Shown here piece after piece: positions 35,331 through 46,443 of a stretch of DNA of 64,000 nt. The position numbers and the translations under genes were made by a program. This DNA comes from Blastococcus haudaquaticus (GTDB lineage Bacteria > Actinomycetota > Actinomycetes > Mycobacteriales > Geodermatophilaceae). The notes beneath the pieces were generated by a model, which saw only the letters and a program-made list of their open reading frames with translations, was not told the origin of the DNA and searched no databases. Each line of letters opens with the position of its first letter. Positions within the stretch are counted from its first letter, which is position 1. The stretch lies in contig NZ_OCNK01000001.1 of NCBI RefSeq assembly GCF_900230285.1, positions 620,001 through 684,000 of the forward strand, read 5' to 3'.

Positions 35331-36272
35331 TCACGGTGTGACCGCCATGAGCGCCGCGGCGCCCCTGTCGAGCAGTTCCGCGGCGAGAGCGCGGCCGAGG
35401 GCCGAGGCGTCACCGGGTGCACCGCTCACCGAGCCGCGGACGGCGTCGCTGCCGTCGATCGCGGTCACGGACGCGCGGAGGAACAGTTCGGGACCGTGCT
35501 CGCCCTCGGCCACCTCGGCGTAGGCGGCCACGGGGGCGCTGCAGCCGGCCTCGAGTGCGGCGAGGGTGCTGCGCTCGGCCTGCACGCAGGCGCGTGCCGA
35601 GACGTCCTCGAGCCGGCCGACGAGCTCCCGGGTGCGGGCATCGCCGGCGCGGCACTCCACGGCCAGGGCGCCCTGGGCGGGAGCCGGCAGCACCTGCAGC
35701 GGATCGAGGGTCTCGGTGATGGCGTCGAGCCGGCCCAGGCGGGACAGCCCGGCGCGCGCCAGGACGACGGCGTCGAGATCTCCCGGCGCGACGCGGCCCA
35801 TGCGGGTGTCCACGTTGCCGCGGATCGGGACGACGTCCAGCCCGAGCCCGAGGGCCCGGAGCTGAGCCACCCGGCGGGGTGCGCCCGTGCCGATCCTGGC
35901 GCCGGGGGGCAGCTCGCCGAGGGTGAGGCCGTCCCGGGCCACCAGCGCGTCGCGCGGGTCCTCGCGCCGGGGCACCGCCGCGATCGTCAGGCCGGGCTCG
36001 GGTGCGGTCGGCAGGTCCTTGTAGCTGTGCACCGCGAGGTCGACGGTGCCCTCGAGCAGCGCGCGGCGGATCGCGGCCACGAACACCCCGGTGCCGCCCA
36101 GCTGCGCGATGGCCGCCGAGGAGCGGTCGCCCTCGGTGACGATGGGGACCAGCTCGACCGCCGCGCCGGTCGCCGCGGTGATCGCGTCGGCGACCGCCTG
36201 GGACTGGGTGCGTGCCAGCGCGCTGCCCCGGGTGCCCAGGCGCAGCGTCGCGGTGACGGTGGCGGTGGTCAC
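35331..36272 (-). CDS. hemC: Porphobilinogen deaminase (hydroxymethylbilane synthase)
   Basis: Polymerises four porphobilinogen units. Blocks: [30 protein letters not shown] with the catalytic Asp nearby, [23 protein letters not shown], and the cofactor-bearing Cys in [13 protein letters not shown] near residue 245. 313 residues. The GTG start overlaps the hemA stop by GTGA. A 61-base gap to hemD, with hemD's own AGGAG site, is the only clear break in the hem run. Confidence 0.96.
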
Positions 36273-37630
36273 GACGCCTCTCCCGTCCGCAGCTCCGGGT
36301 CGACGCGGACGGCGTCCGACAGCGTGGTCTCGCCCACGCTGACGGGGGCGTCGATGCCGAGGCCGAAGAGCGCACGCAGCGCACCGGCGTAGTCGGTCTC
36401 CCCCGGGGTGGCCGCCAGCTCCTTCACCCGCACGGTCGGCTCGTGCAGCAGCTTGTCGACGACGCGGCGGACGGTGCGGGCGATCTCGCCGCGCGCGCGG
36501 GCGTCGAGGTCGGGCAGCCGGGTGGACAGCCGCAGCAGTTCGGCGTCGACCACCTCGGCCGCCTGGCTGCGCAGCGCCGACACCGTCGGGGCCACCTCGG
36601 CGGCCTGCCGCTCGGCGCGCAGCAGGGCGGTCTCGGCCTCCACCAGGGCGTGCGCGGCGGAGATGTCGTCGGCCGCGACCGGCCCGGCGGTGGGCCGACC
36701 GGGCGTCGACGAACGCTCCCCCTGCAGAAGAGCGAGGTCGACCACGTGGACGCCCGGCAGCGCCCCGACTCCCGGGTCGACGTCCCGGGGCAGGGCGAGG
36801 TCGACCACCACGAGCGGGCGGTCACCGCGGCCGCGCATGGCCTCGGCGACGACGTCGGTGGACACGACCAGACCGGTCGCGCCGGTGCAGGTGACCAGCA
36901 CGTCGGCCAGGGGCAGCTCCGCCGGCAGCTCGTCGAGACGAGCGGCGCGGCCGTCGACCGCGTCGGCCAGCCGGGCCGCGTGCGCCTCGGTCCGGGTGCT
37001 GACGACCACGGAGGCGCCGCGTCGGGCGAGGGTCGTGGCGGCGAGGGCGCCCATCGACCCGGCACCGACCACGAGGACGGGACGGCCGGTCAGGCTGCCG
37101 ATGACGTCCTCGGCGCGGTCGAGGGCGACCGACACGAGCGAGGCGCCGGCGCGGTCGATCCCGGTCTCGGTGTGCACGCGCTTGCCGACCCGCAGGGCGC
37201 GCTGGGCCACCGGGTGCAGCGCTCGCCCGACGGTGCCCTCCTCGCGGGCGAGTGCGTAGGCGGCGCGCAGCTGACCGAGGACCTGGGTCTCGCCCACGAC
37301 CATCGAGTCCAGGCCGGAGGCGACCGTGAACAGGTGGGCCACGGCCTGGTCCTCGTAGTGCACGGTCACGTACGGGGAGAGCTCCTCGACCGTCGCGCCG
37401 GCCTGGCGGGCCAGCACCCGGCTGACGTCGGTGACGCCACCGTGGAACTTCTCGACCTCGGCGAAGACCTCGATGCGGTTGCACGTGGCGAGGACGAGCG
37501 CCTCGGTGACGTGGTCGCTCTCCACCAGCTCGTGCAGCGCCTTCACCCGGTCGTCGGGACCCATGGCGAACTGCTCGAGCAGCGCCACCGGTGCGGTCTG
37601 GTGGGACACGCCCACCGCCAGCAGACTCAT
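36269..37630 (-). CDS. hemA: Glutamyl-tRNA reductase
   Basis: First committed haem step: reduces glutamyl-tRNA to glutamate-1-semialdehyde with NADPH. The catalytic Cys50 is in [25 protein letters not shown] and the NADPH loop VVGAGSMG (near residue 190) are intact, and a helical dimerisation domain follows. 453 residues. The ATG overlaps the stop of a 26-codon mini-ORF that separates it from rex. Coupling to rex implies control by cellular NADH. Confidence 0.96.
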
Positions 37631-37707
37631 GAGTCCTCCTCGCCGGCGCTCGTCGGCCGCATTCGCCGACTCGCTCTGTTCACGGCGGAACTCGCAAGCT
37701 CGTTCAC
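37627..37707 (-). CDS. 26-codon mini-ORF coupling rex to hemA
   Basis: The frame starts GTG (VNELASSAVNRASRR...) and ends ...SAGEEDS. Its GTG overlaps the rex stop (GTGA), and its stop overlaps the hemA ATG (ATGA). The peptide is polar and motif-free, and the DNA is rich in GAGC/GAGTC-type runs like other inserts in this window. It seems to preserve translational coupling across extra DNA; a biological role for the peptide is not supported. Confidence 0.4.
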   Translation of the reverse strand: MNELASSAVNRASRRMRPTSAGEEDS

Positions 37708-38366
37708 GCTGGCTCCTCGACCGGGGACACCAGGCGCTGCTGTCCCAGGAACGCCAGCACCTGCAGCTCCACCGACAGGTCGACCTTGCGGACGTCGACC
37801 CCGGGGGGCGCGGAGAGGGTGACCGGCGCGAAGTTCAAGATGCTCCTCACCCCGGCCGCGGCCAGCCGGTCGCAGACCGACTGGGCCACCTCGGCCGGTG
37901 TCGTGATGACGCCGATGGAGGCCTGCGTCGCCGCGACGACCTCTTCGAGCTCGTCCATCGGGCGCACGGTGTGACCGCCGATGCGCTGACCGACGCGGGC
38001 CGGGGCGGCGTCGAACAGGCCGACGAACTCGAACCCGCGGGATCCGAAGCCGGCGTAGTCCGACAGCGCCGAACCCAGGTTGCCGATGCCGACCAGCACG
38101 CACGGCCGTGAGCGCTCCACCCCCAGCACGCGGGAGATGCGGTCGCGCAGGGTGCGGACCTCGTAGCCGACGCCGCGGACGCCGCAGGGGCCGAGGTGGG
38201 AGAGGTCCTTGCGGAGCCCGGCGGGGTTGACCCCGGCCGCCGCGGCCAGTTCACCGGATGCCACGGTGCTCCGGCCGCCGTCGGCCAGAGCGGTCAGCAC
38301 CCGGAGGTAGACGGCCAGGCGGGCGACGGTGGCCTCCGGGATCGTCCGGGGCCGCGGCTGGATCAC
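37704..38366 (-). CDS. rex: Redox-sensing transcriptional repressor Rex
   Basis: NADH/NAD+ sensor that releases DNA when NADH is high. 220 residues: winged helix in residues ~10-85 (NPAGLRKDLSHLGPCGVRGVGY is the recognition region), Rossmann NAD domain from ~88 with VGIGNLGSAL (GIGNLG at 93-98), then FEFVGLFDA and a domain-swapped C-terminal helix. The GTG start has GGAGAG upstream. It heads the operon with hemA, and a Rex-like site lies in its own promoter. Confidence 0.95.
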   Translation of the reverse strand: MIQPRPRTIPEATVARLAVYLRVLTALADGGRSTVASGELAAAAGVNPAGLRKDLSHLGPCGVRGVGYEVRTLRDRISRVLGVERSRPCVLVGIGNLGSALSDYAGFGSRGFEFVGLFDAAPARVGQRIGGHTVRPMDELEEVVAATQASIGVITTPAEVAQSVCDRLAAAGVRSILNFAPVTLSAPPGVDVRKVDLSVELQVLAFLGQQRLVSPVEEPA

Positions 38367-40433: not shown

Positions 40434-40633
40434 GATCTCCTCCGTTGGAGCTGGTCTGGTCGGCCGGCCCCGGAAGGCACGTCGCGGTGCGTTCCGGCAA
40501 GCTGGCGTGGACGGGCTGGGGCGATGTTGTCACCATGGGGCCGGCCCTGCAGCATCGCGCGCCCGTTCCCCGCCGGGCGCGTCGGGGGAAGATGGTCCAG
40601 GTAGGCGGGCCGACGAGGAGGTCGATCGCCCGC

Positions 40634-41443
40634 ATGGCCCAGCCCCTGGACGCCGAGCGGTTCCCCGCCGCCGCACCCCCGACGGCGTCCCCGGTCCCGT
40701 CGCGGCGTCCCTCGCCCCGGCCGCGTCCCACCCCGGGCCCCTCGCCGGCGGCGCGCCCCACCCCGTTCCCCCGGGCCAGCGCCGAGCACCTCCCGGCAGA
40801 GCCGCTCAACATCGCCGCCGACGTCCCCGACACGATCGAGGAGGACGTCGCCGACGAGGTGGCCGCGCTGGAGGCAGGCCTCGCGCCCGCGCCCGACGGT
40901 GTGGACGTCTGGGGCCTGGTGGCCCGGGCGCAGGAGGGCGATGCCGAGGCGTTCGGGCTGCTCTACGACCACTACGTCACGACGGTGCACCGCTACGTCT
41001 ACTACCGGGTGGGCGACCGGGCGACCGCGGAGGACGTCACGAGCGAGACGTTCGTGCGGGCCCTCCGCCGGATCGACTCCCTGTCCTTCCAGGGCCGCGA
41101 CGTCGGCGCCTGGCTGGTCACCATCGCCCGCAACATCATCCGCGACCACGTGAAGAGCAGCCGCTACCGGCTGGAGGTCACCACCGCGGACATGCGCGAC
41201 GCCGACCGGGCCACCGACGGGCCCGAGGACGCCGTGGTGCAGCACCTCACCAACCGGGAGCTCCTGGCCTGCGTGCAGCAGCTGGGCAGCGAGCAGCAGG
41301 AATGCATCGTGCTGCGTTTCATCCACGGCCTCTCGGTGTCCGAGACCGCCGAGATCATGGGCAAGAAGGACGGCGCCATCAAGGCGCTGCAGCACCGCGC
41401 GGTCCGCCGTCTCGCCGGCCTCCTCCCGGACGGTCTGCGATGA
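40634..41443 (+). CDS. bldN: ECF sigma factor, BldN type
   Basis: 269 residues. Region 2 (EAFGLLYDHYVTTVHRYVYYRVGDRATAEDVTSETFVRAL) and region 4 (QQECIVLRFIHGLSVSETAEIMGKKDGAIKALQHRAVRRLAGLLPD) match what I recall of Streptomyces sigma BldN almost block for block. A ~90-residue Pro/Arg/Ala-rich N-terminus precedes region 2, like the cleaved pro-sequence of BldN. The hem-rex neighbourhood and a following anti-sigma gene are also the same. The ATG (MAQPLDAERF) has GAGGAGG upstream but at a long spacing (~13), so the start is uncertain. Confidence 0.82.
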   Translation: MAQPLDAERFPAAAPPTASPVPSRRPSPRPRPTPGPSPAARPTPFPRASAEHLPAEPLNIAADVPDTIEEDVADEVAALEAGLAPAPDGVDVWGLVARAQEGDAEAFGLLYDHYVTTVHRYVYYRVGDRATAEDVTSETFVRALRRIDSLSFQGRDVGAWLVTIARNIIRDHVKSSRYRLEVTTADMRDADRATDGPEDAVVQHLTNRELLACVQQLGSEQQECIVLRFIHGLSVSETAEIMGKKDGAIKALQHRAVRRLAGLLPDGLR

Positions 41444-41465
41444 CCGGGACGACCTTCGTCGGGGG

Positions 41466-41494
41466 CGTAACCGAATACCGGCCCCCCTCGTTGG
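41466..41494 (+). promoter_or_regulatory. BldN-type promoter upstream of rsbN
   Basis: CGTAAC (41466-41471) and CGTTGG (41489-41494) are 17 bases apart. The Streptomyces BldN consensus, as I recall it, is CGTAAC-N16-CGTTGA, and rsbN is one of its targets. The -10 is about 70 bases before the rsbN ATG. Confidence 0.6.
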
Positions 41495-41561
41495 GTCAGG
41501 TGCAGCGGGGTCGGCCGATGGTGGGCCGCTCCGCGTCCACGGGGACCGGAGGCCAGACGTC

Positions 41562-42725
41562 ATGAGCGTGCGAGATCGCGAGGAGTCCGTCGTCGCGCGG
41601 CTGCACGCCCTGTCGCCCAGCCTCGGCGGGGAGCCCGACCCCGACTTCCGGGCAGCCACCCGCGCGCGGCTCGTCGCGATGGCCGCCGTCCGGACGCCCG
41701 AACCGGCACCGCGGTCCACGCTGCAGCGCCTCCTGTCCGCGCGCGCCGCGGACGCCGCACCCGCCCGCTGGCGCGGCCGCCTGACCGCCGGCCTCGCCGG
41801 TGCTGCGCTCACCGTCACCGCGCTCGCATCGCTCGTCGCCGTCGCCGACGACGCCCGTCCCGGCGACGTCCTCTACGACCTCAAGCGCGGCACCGAGCAG
41901 ACCCAGCTGGCCCTGGCCGGGGACTCCCGCGGCCAGACCCTCCTCGACTTCGCCAGCACCCGACTCGACGAGCTGGAGACCCTCGTCGGCGACGGCCCGA
42001 GCGCGCTGCCCGCCGTCCCGGCCGGCGGGCAGGACGACGCGACGGTGCTGGCCGCGGACGCGGACCCCGCGCTGGTGCTCGAGACGCTGCGGACGATGGA
42101 CGAGCAGACCCAGGAGGGCGCGGCCTGGCTGACCGACCGGGCCGTCGACACGGCCAACCGAGCGCCGCTGGACCGGCTGGCCCAGTGGGCCGCCGCCCAG
42201 TCCGGTGAGCTGGCCGCGCTGGAGCCGCTCGTCCCGGAGGCCGCGGCCGACGCCGTCGCCGGGTCCCTCGAGCTCCTCGCACAGGTCGGTCTGCGCGCCG
42301 ACGGCCTCGAGGTCGCCCTGAGCTGTGCGGGCGGCCCGGCGGTGGCCGGCACCGACGATCTGGGGCCCGTCCCGGCGGCCTGCCCCACTCCGGTCGAGAC
42401 CCCAGGGGCACCGACGAGCGGCCAGACTCCCGGCCCCGGATCGGTGCCCGCGCCGGCGCCGCAGGGGACCACTCCCCCGGGCACGACACCGGCCCAGCCC
42501 ACCGTGCCACCCGAGCCCGCGCCGGCCCCGGTTCCGCCGGGCGGCGGCACCGGAGGTCTGCCGACGACGGTGGTGCCGGCCCCGACGACGCCGCGCCTCC
42601 CGACCCCGTCGGGGCCGCAGCTCCCGCTGCCGGTGCCGCCCGCACCCTCGTCGGCGATCGTCTCCGTGCCGCCGCTGGGGCCGATCGAGGTGTGCATCCC
42701 GCCGCTCCTCACGGTCGGCTGCTGA
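41562..42725 (+). CDS. rsbN: Membrane anti-sigma factor, RsbN-like (DUF5667)
   Basis: 387 residues: a cytosolic N-terminus (1-70) with PDFRAATRARLVAMAAVR, which resembles the RsbN anti-sigma segment; one membrane helix at ~74-95; a DUF5667 domain starting RPGDVLYDLKRGTEQTQLAL; then a Pro/Thr/Gly-rich extracytoplasmic tail (~265-365) ending in a Cys-containing hydrophobic motif. Gene order after bldN and a BldN-type promoter in the 118-base gap support the role: hold sigma BldN at the membrane, with negative feedback. No good ribosome site is seen at the ATG. Confidence 0.75.
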   Translation: MSVRDREESVVARLHALSPSLGGEPDPDFRAATRARLVAMAAVRTPEPAPRSTLQRLLSARAADAAPARWRGRLTAGLAGAALTVTALASLVAVADDARPGDVLYDLKRGTEQTQLALAGDSRGQTLLDFASTRLDELETLVGDGPSALPAVPAGGQDDATVLAADADPALVLETLRTMDEQTQEGAAWLTDRAVDTANRAPLDRLAQWAAAQSGELAALEPLVPEAAADAVAGSLELLAQVGLRADGLEVALSCAGGPAVAGTDDLGPVPAACPTPVETPGAPTSGQTPGPGSVPAPAPQGTTPPGTTPAQPTVPPEPAPAPVPPGGGTGGLPTTVVPAPTTPRLPTPSGPQLPLPVPPAPSSAIVSVPPLGPIEVCIPPLLTVGC

Positions 42726-46101: not shown

Positions 46102-46443
46102 TCAGGCGATGTCGGTGTAGGCGTCGCGCAGGTAGTCCTGCACGGCCCGCTCCGGCACGCGGAAGGAACGGCCGACGCGGACGGCGGAGAGCTCGCCGGC
46201 GTGGACGAGGCGGTACACGGTCATCTTGGAGACGCGCATCATGGCGGCGACCTCGGCGACGGTCAGGAACGTGACGGCCTGACGGGGGGCCGGGACGGCC
46301 GGACGGCCGAGGGGCATGGCGGCCGGGTGCTGGGCCGGGACGGGGCGGGCCATCGTGGCGGCCATGGGGCGGCCGACGGGCCGGGGGCCGGGCACGCCCG
46401 GGCGGGACATCGCAGGGGCTGCAGTGCGCTGGGGCATGGTCAT
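46102..46443 (-). CDS. Helix-turn-helix (MerR/excisionase-type) DNA-binding protein
   Basis: 113 residues. The C-terminal ~60 carry the winged HTH FLTVAEVAAMMRVSKMTVYRLVHAGELSAVRVGRSFRVPERAV; the N-terminal ~50 are Pro/Ala/Arg-rich and probably disordered. It matches the small conserved Rv0500A-type protein next to bS22 and proC across actinobacteria. The fold resembles BldC/Xis, but this is a chromosomal core gene, not a phage excisionase. GGAG precedes the ATG by about eight bases. Its target genes are unknown. Confidence 0.85.
   Translation of the reverse strand: MTMPQRTAAPAMSRPGVPGPRPVGRPMAATMARPVPAQHPAAMPLGRPAVPAPRQAVTFLTVAEVAAMMRVSKMTVYRLVHAGELSAVRVGRSFRVPERAVQDYLRDAYTDIA

Follow-up and report, generated by a model that had tools for sequence, protein, structure and literature searches.

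Blastococcus carries an orthologue of the Streptomyces sigma factor BldN next to a putative RsbN-type membrane anti-sigma factor, and we consider it likely that this pair serves other target genes than in Streptomyces and that a short reading frame between the two genes, here called the bridge, couples translation of bldN to that of rsbN. The module and its feedback promoter as such are already known from Streptomyces. Orthology, a set of recurrent promoters together with the genes that they precede, and the conserved register of the bridge can be read directly from the DNA. All features discussed lie in a window of 64,000 nucleotides (the whole stretch of Blastococcus haudaquaticus DNA analysed, numbered from its first base) and are collected in Table 1.

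Table 1. Features of the bldN-rsbN locus, with positions in the window.
Feature	Position	Strand	Evidence or remark
hemC, conserved neighbour	35331..36272	-	TIGR00212 295.3 bits; synteny
hemA, conserved neighbour	36269..37630	-	TIGR01035 398.9 bits; synteny
rex, conserved neighbour	37704..38366	-	NF003992 332.2 bits; synteny
Conserved element GCGATGTTGTCACCATGG 5' of bldN	40521..40538	+	core GATGTTGTCAC kept across family loci
bldN, ECF sigma factor, 269 aa	40634..41443	+	PDB 6dxo_A, TIGR02952, tree
N-terminal extension of BldN, 88 residues before the conserved core, Pro-rich	40634..40897	+	no visible resemblance to the Streptomyces-like extension
Bridge frame, 41 codons + stop	41440..41565	+	ATGA overlaps at both ends
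BldN-type promoter of rsbN, -35 element CGTAAC	41466..41471	+	motif scans
-10 element CGTTGG, 17 bases 3' of the -35 element	41489..41494	+	motif scans
rsbN, 387-aa anti-sigma factor with N-terminal domain, single hydrophobic helix, DUF5667 and Pro-rich end	41562..42725	+	
DUF5667 part of rsbN, residues 99-145	41856..41996	+	Pfam 32.2 bits, cut-off 27

In a search of PDB chains, the sigma factor matches 6dxo_A with an E value of 1.3e-54 (188.9 bits), and the next chain follows at 71.3 bits (E 9.7e-19). Its score for the BldN family model TIGR02952 is 201.9 bits (203.3 in a second search) and remains under the cut-off of 206.45, which is passed by 24 of 148 genomes of the class; scores of 259 to 264 bits are reached in 13 genomes of group f30/g50, labelled "Streptomyces-like" here on the basis of this score and their BldM. 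The preliminary description had named a phylogeny placing the protein in another ECF group as an argument against its assignment. In our quick maximum-likelihood tree of 50 rows, the 25 BldN rows, with Blastococcus and Streptomyces-like sequences in the same clade, instead form one side of a branch with an SH-aLRT support of 98, and the 25 other sigma-70-family proteins of this genome all lie outside. Tree, synteny and PDB match, which we weigh above the near miss of TIGR02952, agree that the protein is an orthologue of Streptomyces BldN. The N-terminal extension of about 90 residues described earlier is present as well (88 residues), but its role as a removable pro-sequence cannot be inferred because it does not visibly resemble its counterpart in Streptomyces-like BldN and varies in length, from about 57 to 88 residues across eight loci of the genus. 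Homology of the two extensions was rejected, none being seen in the sequence comparison. Two genomes of the family (G019 and G029, both of genus g5) give no BldN match at 1e-30 and have no strict promoter site as defined below; they have possibly lost the module, and such genomes are too few for a test.

The neighbouring rex and hem genes, previously described as shared with Streptomyces, match their models here, and a Streptomyces-like genome has them beside bldN in an identical order. The order hemC-hemA-rex-glutaredoxin, followed further along by bldN-rsbN-acyltransferase-SDR-HTH, recurs in that Streptomyces-like genome and in a second class-level genome; a gene for a HAD-type phosphatase comes before bldN in both compared genomes and after rsbN here. 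The last gene of this series, which encodes an excisionase-type HTH protein (46102-46443, minus strand), keeps its order with the SDR and acyltransferase genes and is found near bldN in two distant genomes. As a candidate for bldC it was rejected (26.2 bits against a cut-off of 77). Upstream of bldN, the core of the conserved element recurs in 15 of 15 family loci chosen for examination; considered as a possible BldD box, the element does not fit the presumed BldD consensus.

The product of rsbN has one hydrophobic stretch (approximately residues 74-95, judged by eye) and a DUF5667 part that exceeds the Pfam cut-off, so that the one-helix DUF5667 membrane protein first described beside the sigma gene is recovered. 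DUF5667 is predicted to lie outside the membrane. As a single sequence, RsbN gives no convincing match in the PDB. When five Streptomyces-like and five other RsbN N-termini are combined into a profile, 6dxo_D is found (E 6.9e-25); a second profile, built from 11 family N-termini, misses this chain, and comparison of the two profiles yields a match (Prob 85.8, E 5.4e-6) of 36 columns only. The proposal of an RsbN-type partner thus holds for a DUF5667 membrane protein encoded next door, but its resemblance to the Streptomyces-type domain is confined to these 36 columns. In 22 family RsbN sequences, nothing like the first-helix motif RRxxxFxxxL was seen, and it is possible that the anti-sigma domain, in RsbN of the three-helix class III type, is shortened in this family. 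We take 6dxo_D to be the RsbN domain from its length and match, although the PDB entry labels this chain BldN; the two names are likewise exchanged in the accessible part of the text of PMC7406223.

Between the two genes, the element CGTAAC-N17-CGTTGG is present as the preliminary description had reported (41466-41494). The consensus of BldN promoters is presumably CGTAAC-N16-CGTTGA, and its use here rests on the bldM and rsbN control described below. Our strict motif was CGTAAC-N16/17-CGTTG, with the reversed pattern as control. It has 3 sites in this genome of 4.5 Mb (reversed pattern, 0), and a strict site lies directly 3' of bldN in 16/16 genomes of the genus, meaning those of group g1 in all genus counts (other Blastococcus, namely B. 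aggregatus and B. xanthinilyticus, fall in g12). For a broader view, 180 bldN loci were reduced to 150 by removal of duplicates and of loci with too short downstream sequence. The relaxed motif GTAAC-N15-18-CGTT follows the bldN stop within 330 bases in 107 of these non-redundant loci, compared to 3 of 3000 shuffles, and has a spacer of 17 in 87 loci and of 16 in 20; it is absent from 43 loci and present at least once in 22 of 25 labelled families. Of 42 close bridges, 41 retain GTA, 37 retain TCG and 36 retain TTG, and the commonest codon at five spacer positions occurs in 5 to 13. The distribution over genus, loci and families agrees well with the earlier notion of an ancient feedback loop, and we infer that the loop functions in Blastococcus, too. 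At four loci (L148, L234, L235 and L240), the TAA stop codon of bldN itself forms part of GTAAC, the -35 element of the rsbN promoter.

This promoter sits inside the bridge frame, whose ATG at 41440 overlaps the TGA of bldN and whose own TGA at 41563 overlaps the ATG of rsbN at 41562. With the rsbN frame of each locus set from stop codons and third-position G+C beyond the bridge, we find bridges in 83 of the 150 loci, 62 of them with the promoter, in 30 different lengths from 18 to 91 codons; 67 loci have none. Family and genus tallies use 84 flagged bridges, which include L148, where the bldN stop carries GTAA instead of a start codon; on this count, 15 of the 25 labelled families of actinobacteria have bridges. 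Where the promoter is accompanied by RTGA on the bldN stop, rsbN lies in the register of a relay at 67 of 81 loci, with 8 and 6 in the other frames, and when each genus is scored by its majority, 28 of 35 RTGA genera have the relay register (binomial P 2e-8 assuming independent genera, which is not wholly true). The 26 loci that have the promoter without RTGA are distributed 9, 9 and 8 over the frames. Similarly, the TAA of GTAAC falls within the bridge frame at 1 of the 81 RTGA loci versus 9 of the 26 others. Shine-Dalgarno-like sequences precede rsbN in 61/83 bridge loci (74/1660 random windows) and the start of the bridge in 35/83 (versus 104/830), and in 58 of these 83 loci bldN has CGA or CGG directly before its stop codon.

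The sequence of the bridge, by comparison, appears to be free. Substitutions counted over all pairs of 42 bridges are spread without bias over codon positions 1, 2 and 3 (14232, 14401 and 14960), so that the bridge was rejected as a conserved peptide and its register rather than its peptide seems to be selected. This absence of bias fits a relay and is by itself no sign of translation. The idea that the bridge supplies the first helix absent from RsbN was rejected as well, with no resemblance seen by eye. Open and in register yet variable in its letters, the bridge may be a translational relay that would allow a feedback promoter between the sigma and anti-sigma genes while their translation stays coupled, a reading that we regard as evenly poised between right and wrong. 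If the module were an ordinary BldN-RsbN operon, the bridge could instead be an accident of high-GC DNA in which stop codons are scarce, and the stretch would only carry the rsbN promoter; a peptide that is not conserved would suit this explanation, as would the 13 of 13 Streptomyces-like loci that have CTGA and manage without any bridge. We nevertheless consider such an accident rather unlikely, given that register and start/stop overlaps persist over so many lengths and genera and that the loci without RTGA are evenly spread over the three frames. The register would also be explained if RsbN were longer and started inside the intergenic stretch, its own frame then being the one that is kept. 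At 63 of 83 loci, no stop codon interrupts the rsbN frame over the length of the bridge, and an upstream in-frame start is found in 37 of the 84 flagged bridges, but no ATG or GTG of this frame exists upstream of 41562 here. The Shine-Dalgarno-like sequences before the assumed rsbN start and the lack of codon-position bias in the stretch likewise speak against a longer RsbN, which we therefore judge to be very improbable.

The preliminary description had proposed a genome search for BldN-type sites to predict the regulon, and this search recovers recurrent candidate targets. The 16 genomes of the genus contain 64 strict sites (reversed pattern, 9), and 56 of them precede one of six recurrent genes: rsbN (16 sites), nadD (13), and four whose products are of secreted or surface type. 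These four encode a secreted S15-type hydrolase beside sucC (11 sites), a GDSL lipase (10), a beta-propeller protein that is likewise secreted (4), and a protein of surface type (2). The rsbN target was assigned from coordinates and signal sequences of the targets were judged by eye; the other 8 sites, one sequence being counted twice, have no recurrent gene of the set downstream. The looser pattern GTAAC-N16/17-CGTT has 11 sites in this genome (control, 1), and six of these precede the same six genes. Further sites among the 11 precede genes for a subtilase, a second secreted hydrolase and a putatively Mce-type ABC ATPase, as well as a gene that we presume to be pckG; one site looks like chance. 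In the family, at least one strict site is present in 61 of 86 genomes and none in 25. Among 40 sites of other genera, chosen by hand from those listed, 36 precede the six genes of the genus or two further recurrent genes, with 16 before nadD, 7 before the GDSL lipase gene, 4 before the S15 hydrolase gene, 3 before a penicillin-amidase-type gene, 2 each before the ABC ATPase gene and rsbN, and 1 each before the beta-propeller and surface-type genes; 4 precede none of these. At several nadD loci (L003, L064, L258, L281 and others), the BldN-type site lies approximately 200-285 bases 5' of nadD, which leaves a long leader.

Judging from these sites, the output of BldN in Blastococcus would be NAD synthesis together with secreted enzymes and surface proteins in place of chaplins or bldM, in line with the earlier expectation of a new output. 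The sites other than that of rsbN could alternatively be served by a different sigma factor whose preference is similar, BldN then controlling rsbN alone. Such factors are available, as the genome has 25 further sigma-70-family matches, and the link between BldN and its sites is one of sequence. We find this alternative improbable, however, because the same strict motif adjoins bldN in every genome of the genus and retrieves bldM in Streptomyces-like genomes.

In four Streptomyces-like genomes, which served as positive control, there are 28 strict sites (reversed pattern, 7), and the motif precedes rsbN in 4/4 and, likewise in 4/4, a response regulator gene that we take to be bldM. This fits the accessible text of PMC4125116, in which bldM is a published target of sigma-BldN. 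The feedback loop thus appears to be shared with the Streptomyces-like genomes, whereas the recovered targets differ. No chaplin was found among the frames listed after the strict sites of these four genomes (6 of the 28 sites have no listed frame), and a rough chaplin-like pattern found none after strict sites there either. The strict motif therefore overlooks known targets, and the lack of a site is accordingly weak evidence. In the genus, the chaplin model PF03777 has no match in this genome and 10 others, with genome G035 as the sole positive control. This is in keeping with the suggestion of a lineage without chaplins, and Blastococcus is not known to form aerial hyphae. Family-wide, 3 of 86 genomes have PF03777 matches while 83 do not, unlike G035, and 14 control genomes also have none. 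The matches of G035 include frames of 672 and 689 aa with many PF03777 repeats each (L180 on C1 at ~561 kb and L183 at ~2194 kb).

BldM was rejected as a shared target. A search of the 16 genomes of the genus gave no BldM match at 1e-40, and the best full-length matches are paralogues of approximately 42% identity, while the positive controls in Streptomyces-like genomes were found. Locus L350 (C2, ~522.2-523.0 kb) encodes a BldM/WhiI-like response regulator whose receiver is divergent and whose DNA-binding part shares 64% identity with BldM. It has relatives in G010 and G036, and none of the 11 sites of this genome lies before its gene.

In Streptomyces, RsbN acts both as a block on BldN and as its membrane anchor, according to the available part of PMC8103513. 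By analogy, the one-helix membrane protein RsbN would hold BldN in Blastococcus, and BldN, once free, would transcribe rsbN as negative feedback alongside the genes with CGTAAC-N16/17-CGTTG promoters, i.e., nadD and those for secreted hydrolases and surface-type proteins. Ribosomes that complete bldN would start again on the bridge and from there on rsbN. Each sigma factor made would thus bring its anti-sigma factor, and the internal promoter would add anti-sigma factor whenever sigma factor is free. Holding and release by RsbN, promoter activity, and both translation and purpose of the bridge are deduced here from sequence. The conserved target set suggests that switch and feedback loop are separable from a role in coat proteins and that its targets have been exchanged, which bears on the view of BldN as master of aerial growth. 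The bridge makes it testable how the synthesis of sigma and anti-sigma factor stays matched across an intervening promoter.

The key papers on BldN-RsbN are reportedly those of Bibb (2012) and Schumacher (2018). Our literature search found no report of this regulon or bridge, with most subscription journals outside the search and priority not established; it found nothing on BldN together with Blastococcus, and only PMC4255298 for BldN together with Geodermatophil-. The accessible portion of this 2013 survey, the genome set of which included Geodermatophilus obscurus from the same family as Blastococcus, reports convincing BldN orthologues only in morphologically complex genera.

As far as the available texts describe it, the Streptomyces BldN-RsbN system (PDB 6dxo; PMC4255298, PMC4125116, PMC8103513) shares with Blastococcus the sigma factor, the adjoining membrane anti-sigma factor and the BldN-type rsbN promoter, and the Streptomyces-like genome compared here also shares the hemC-hemA-rex, acyltransferase and SDR neighbours. 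Blastococcus differs by its lack of a chaplin match, by having no site before its BldM-like gene and by other recurrent targets, as well as by its bridge frame, a different N-terminal extension and an anti-sigma domain that matches in part. The SigR-RsrA pair of Streptomyces resembles the module in its ATGA overlap, its coupling of sigma and anti-sigma factor, and an extra anti-sigma promoter; the overlap there gives incomplete translational coupling, to which a promoter and a ribosome site of the anti-sigma gene itself contribute (PMC5472188, accessible part). Unlike at the bridge, the sigR and rsrA genes overlap directly, the extra promoter lies inside sigR, and the same portion of that paper describes no bridging frame. 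WhiG-RsiG of Rubrobacter and Streptomyces, in the available text of PMC8325347, is similar as a developmental sigma/anti-sigma switch that does a different job in a unicellular relative, and it differs in that it involves another sigma family, depends on c-di-GMP and has type IV pili as its output there.
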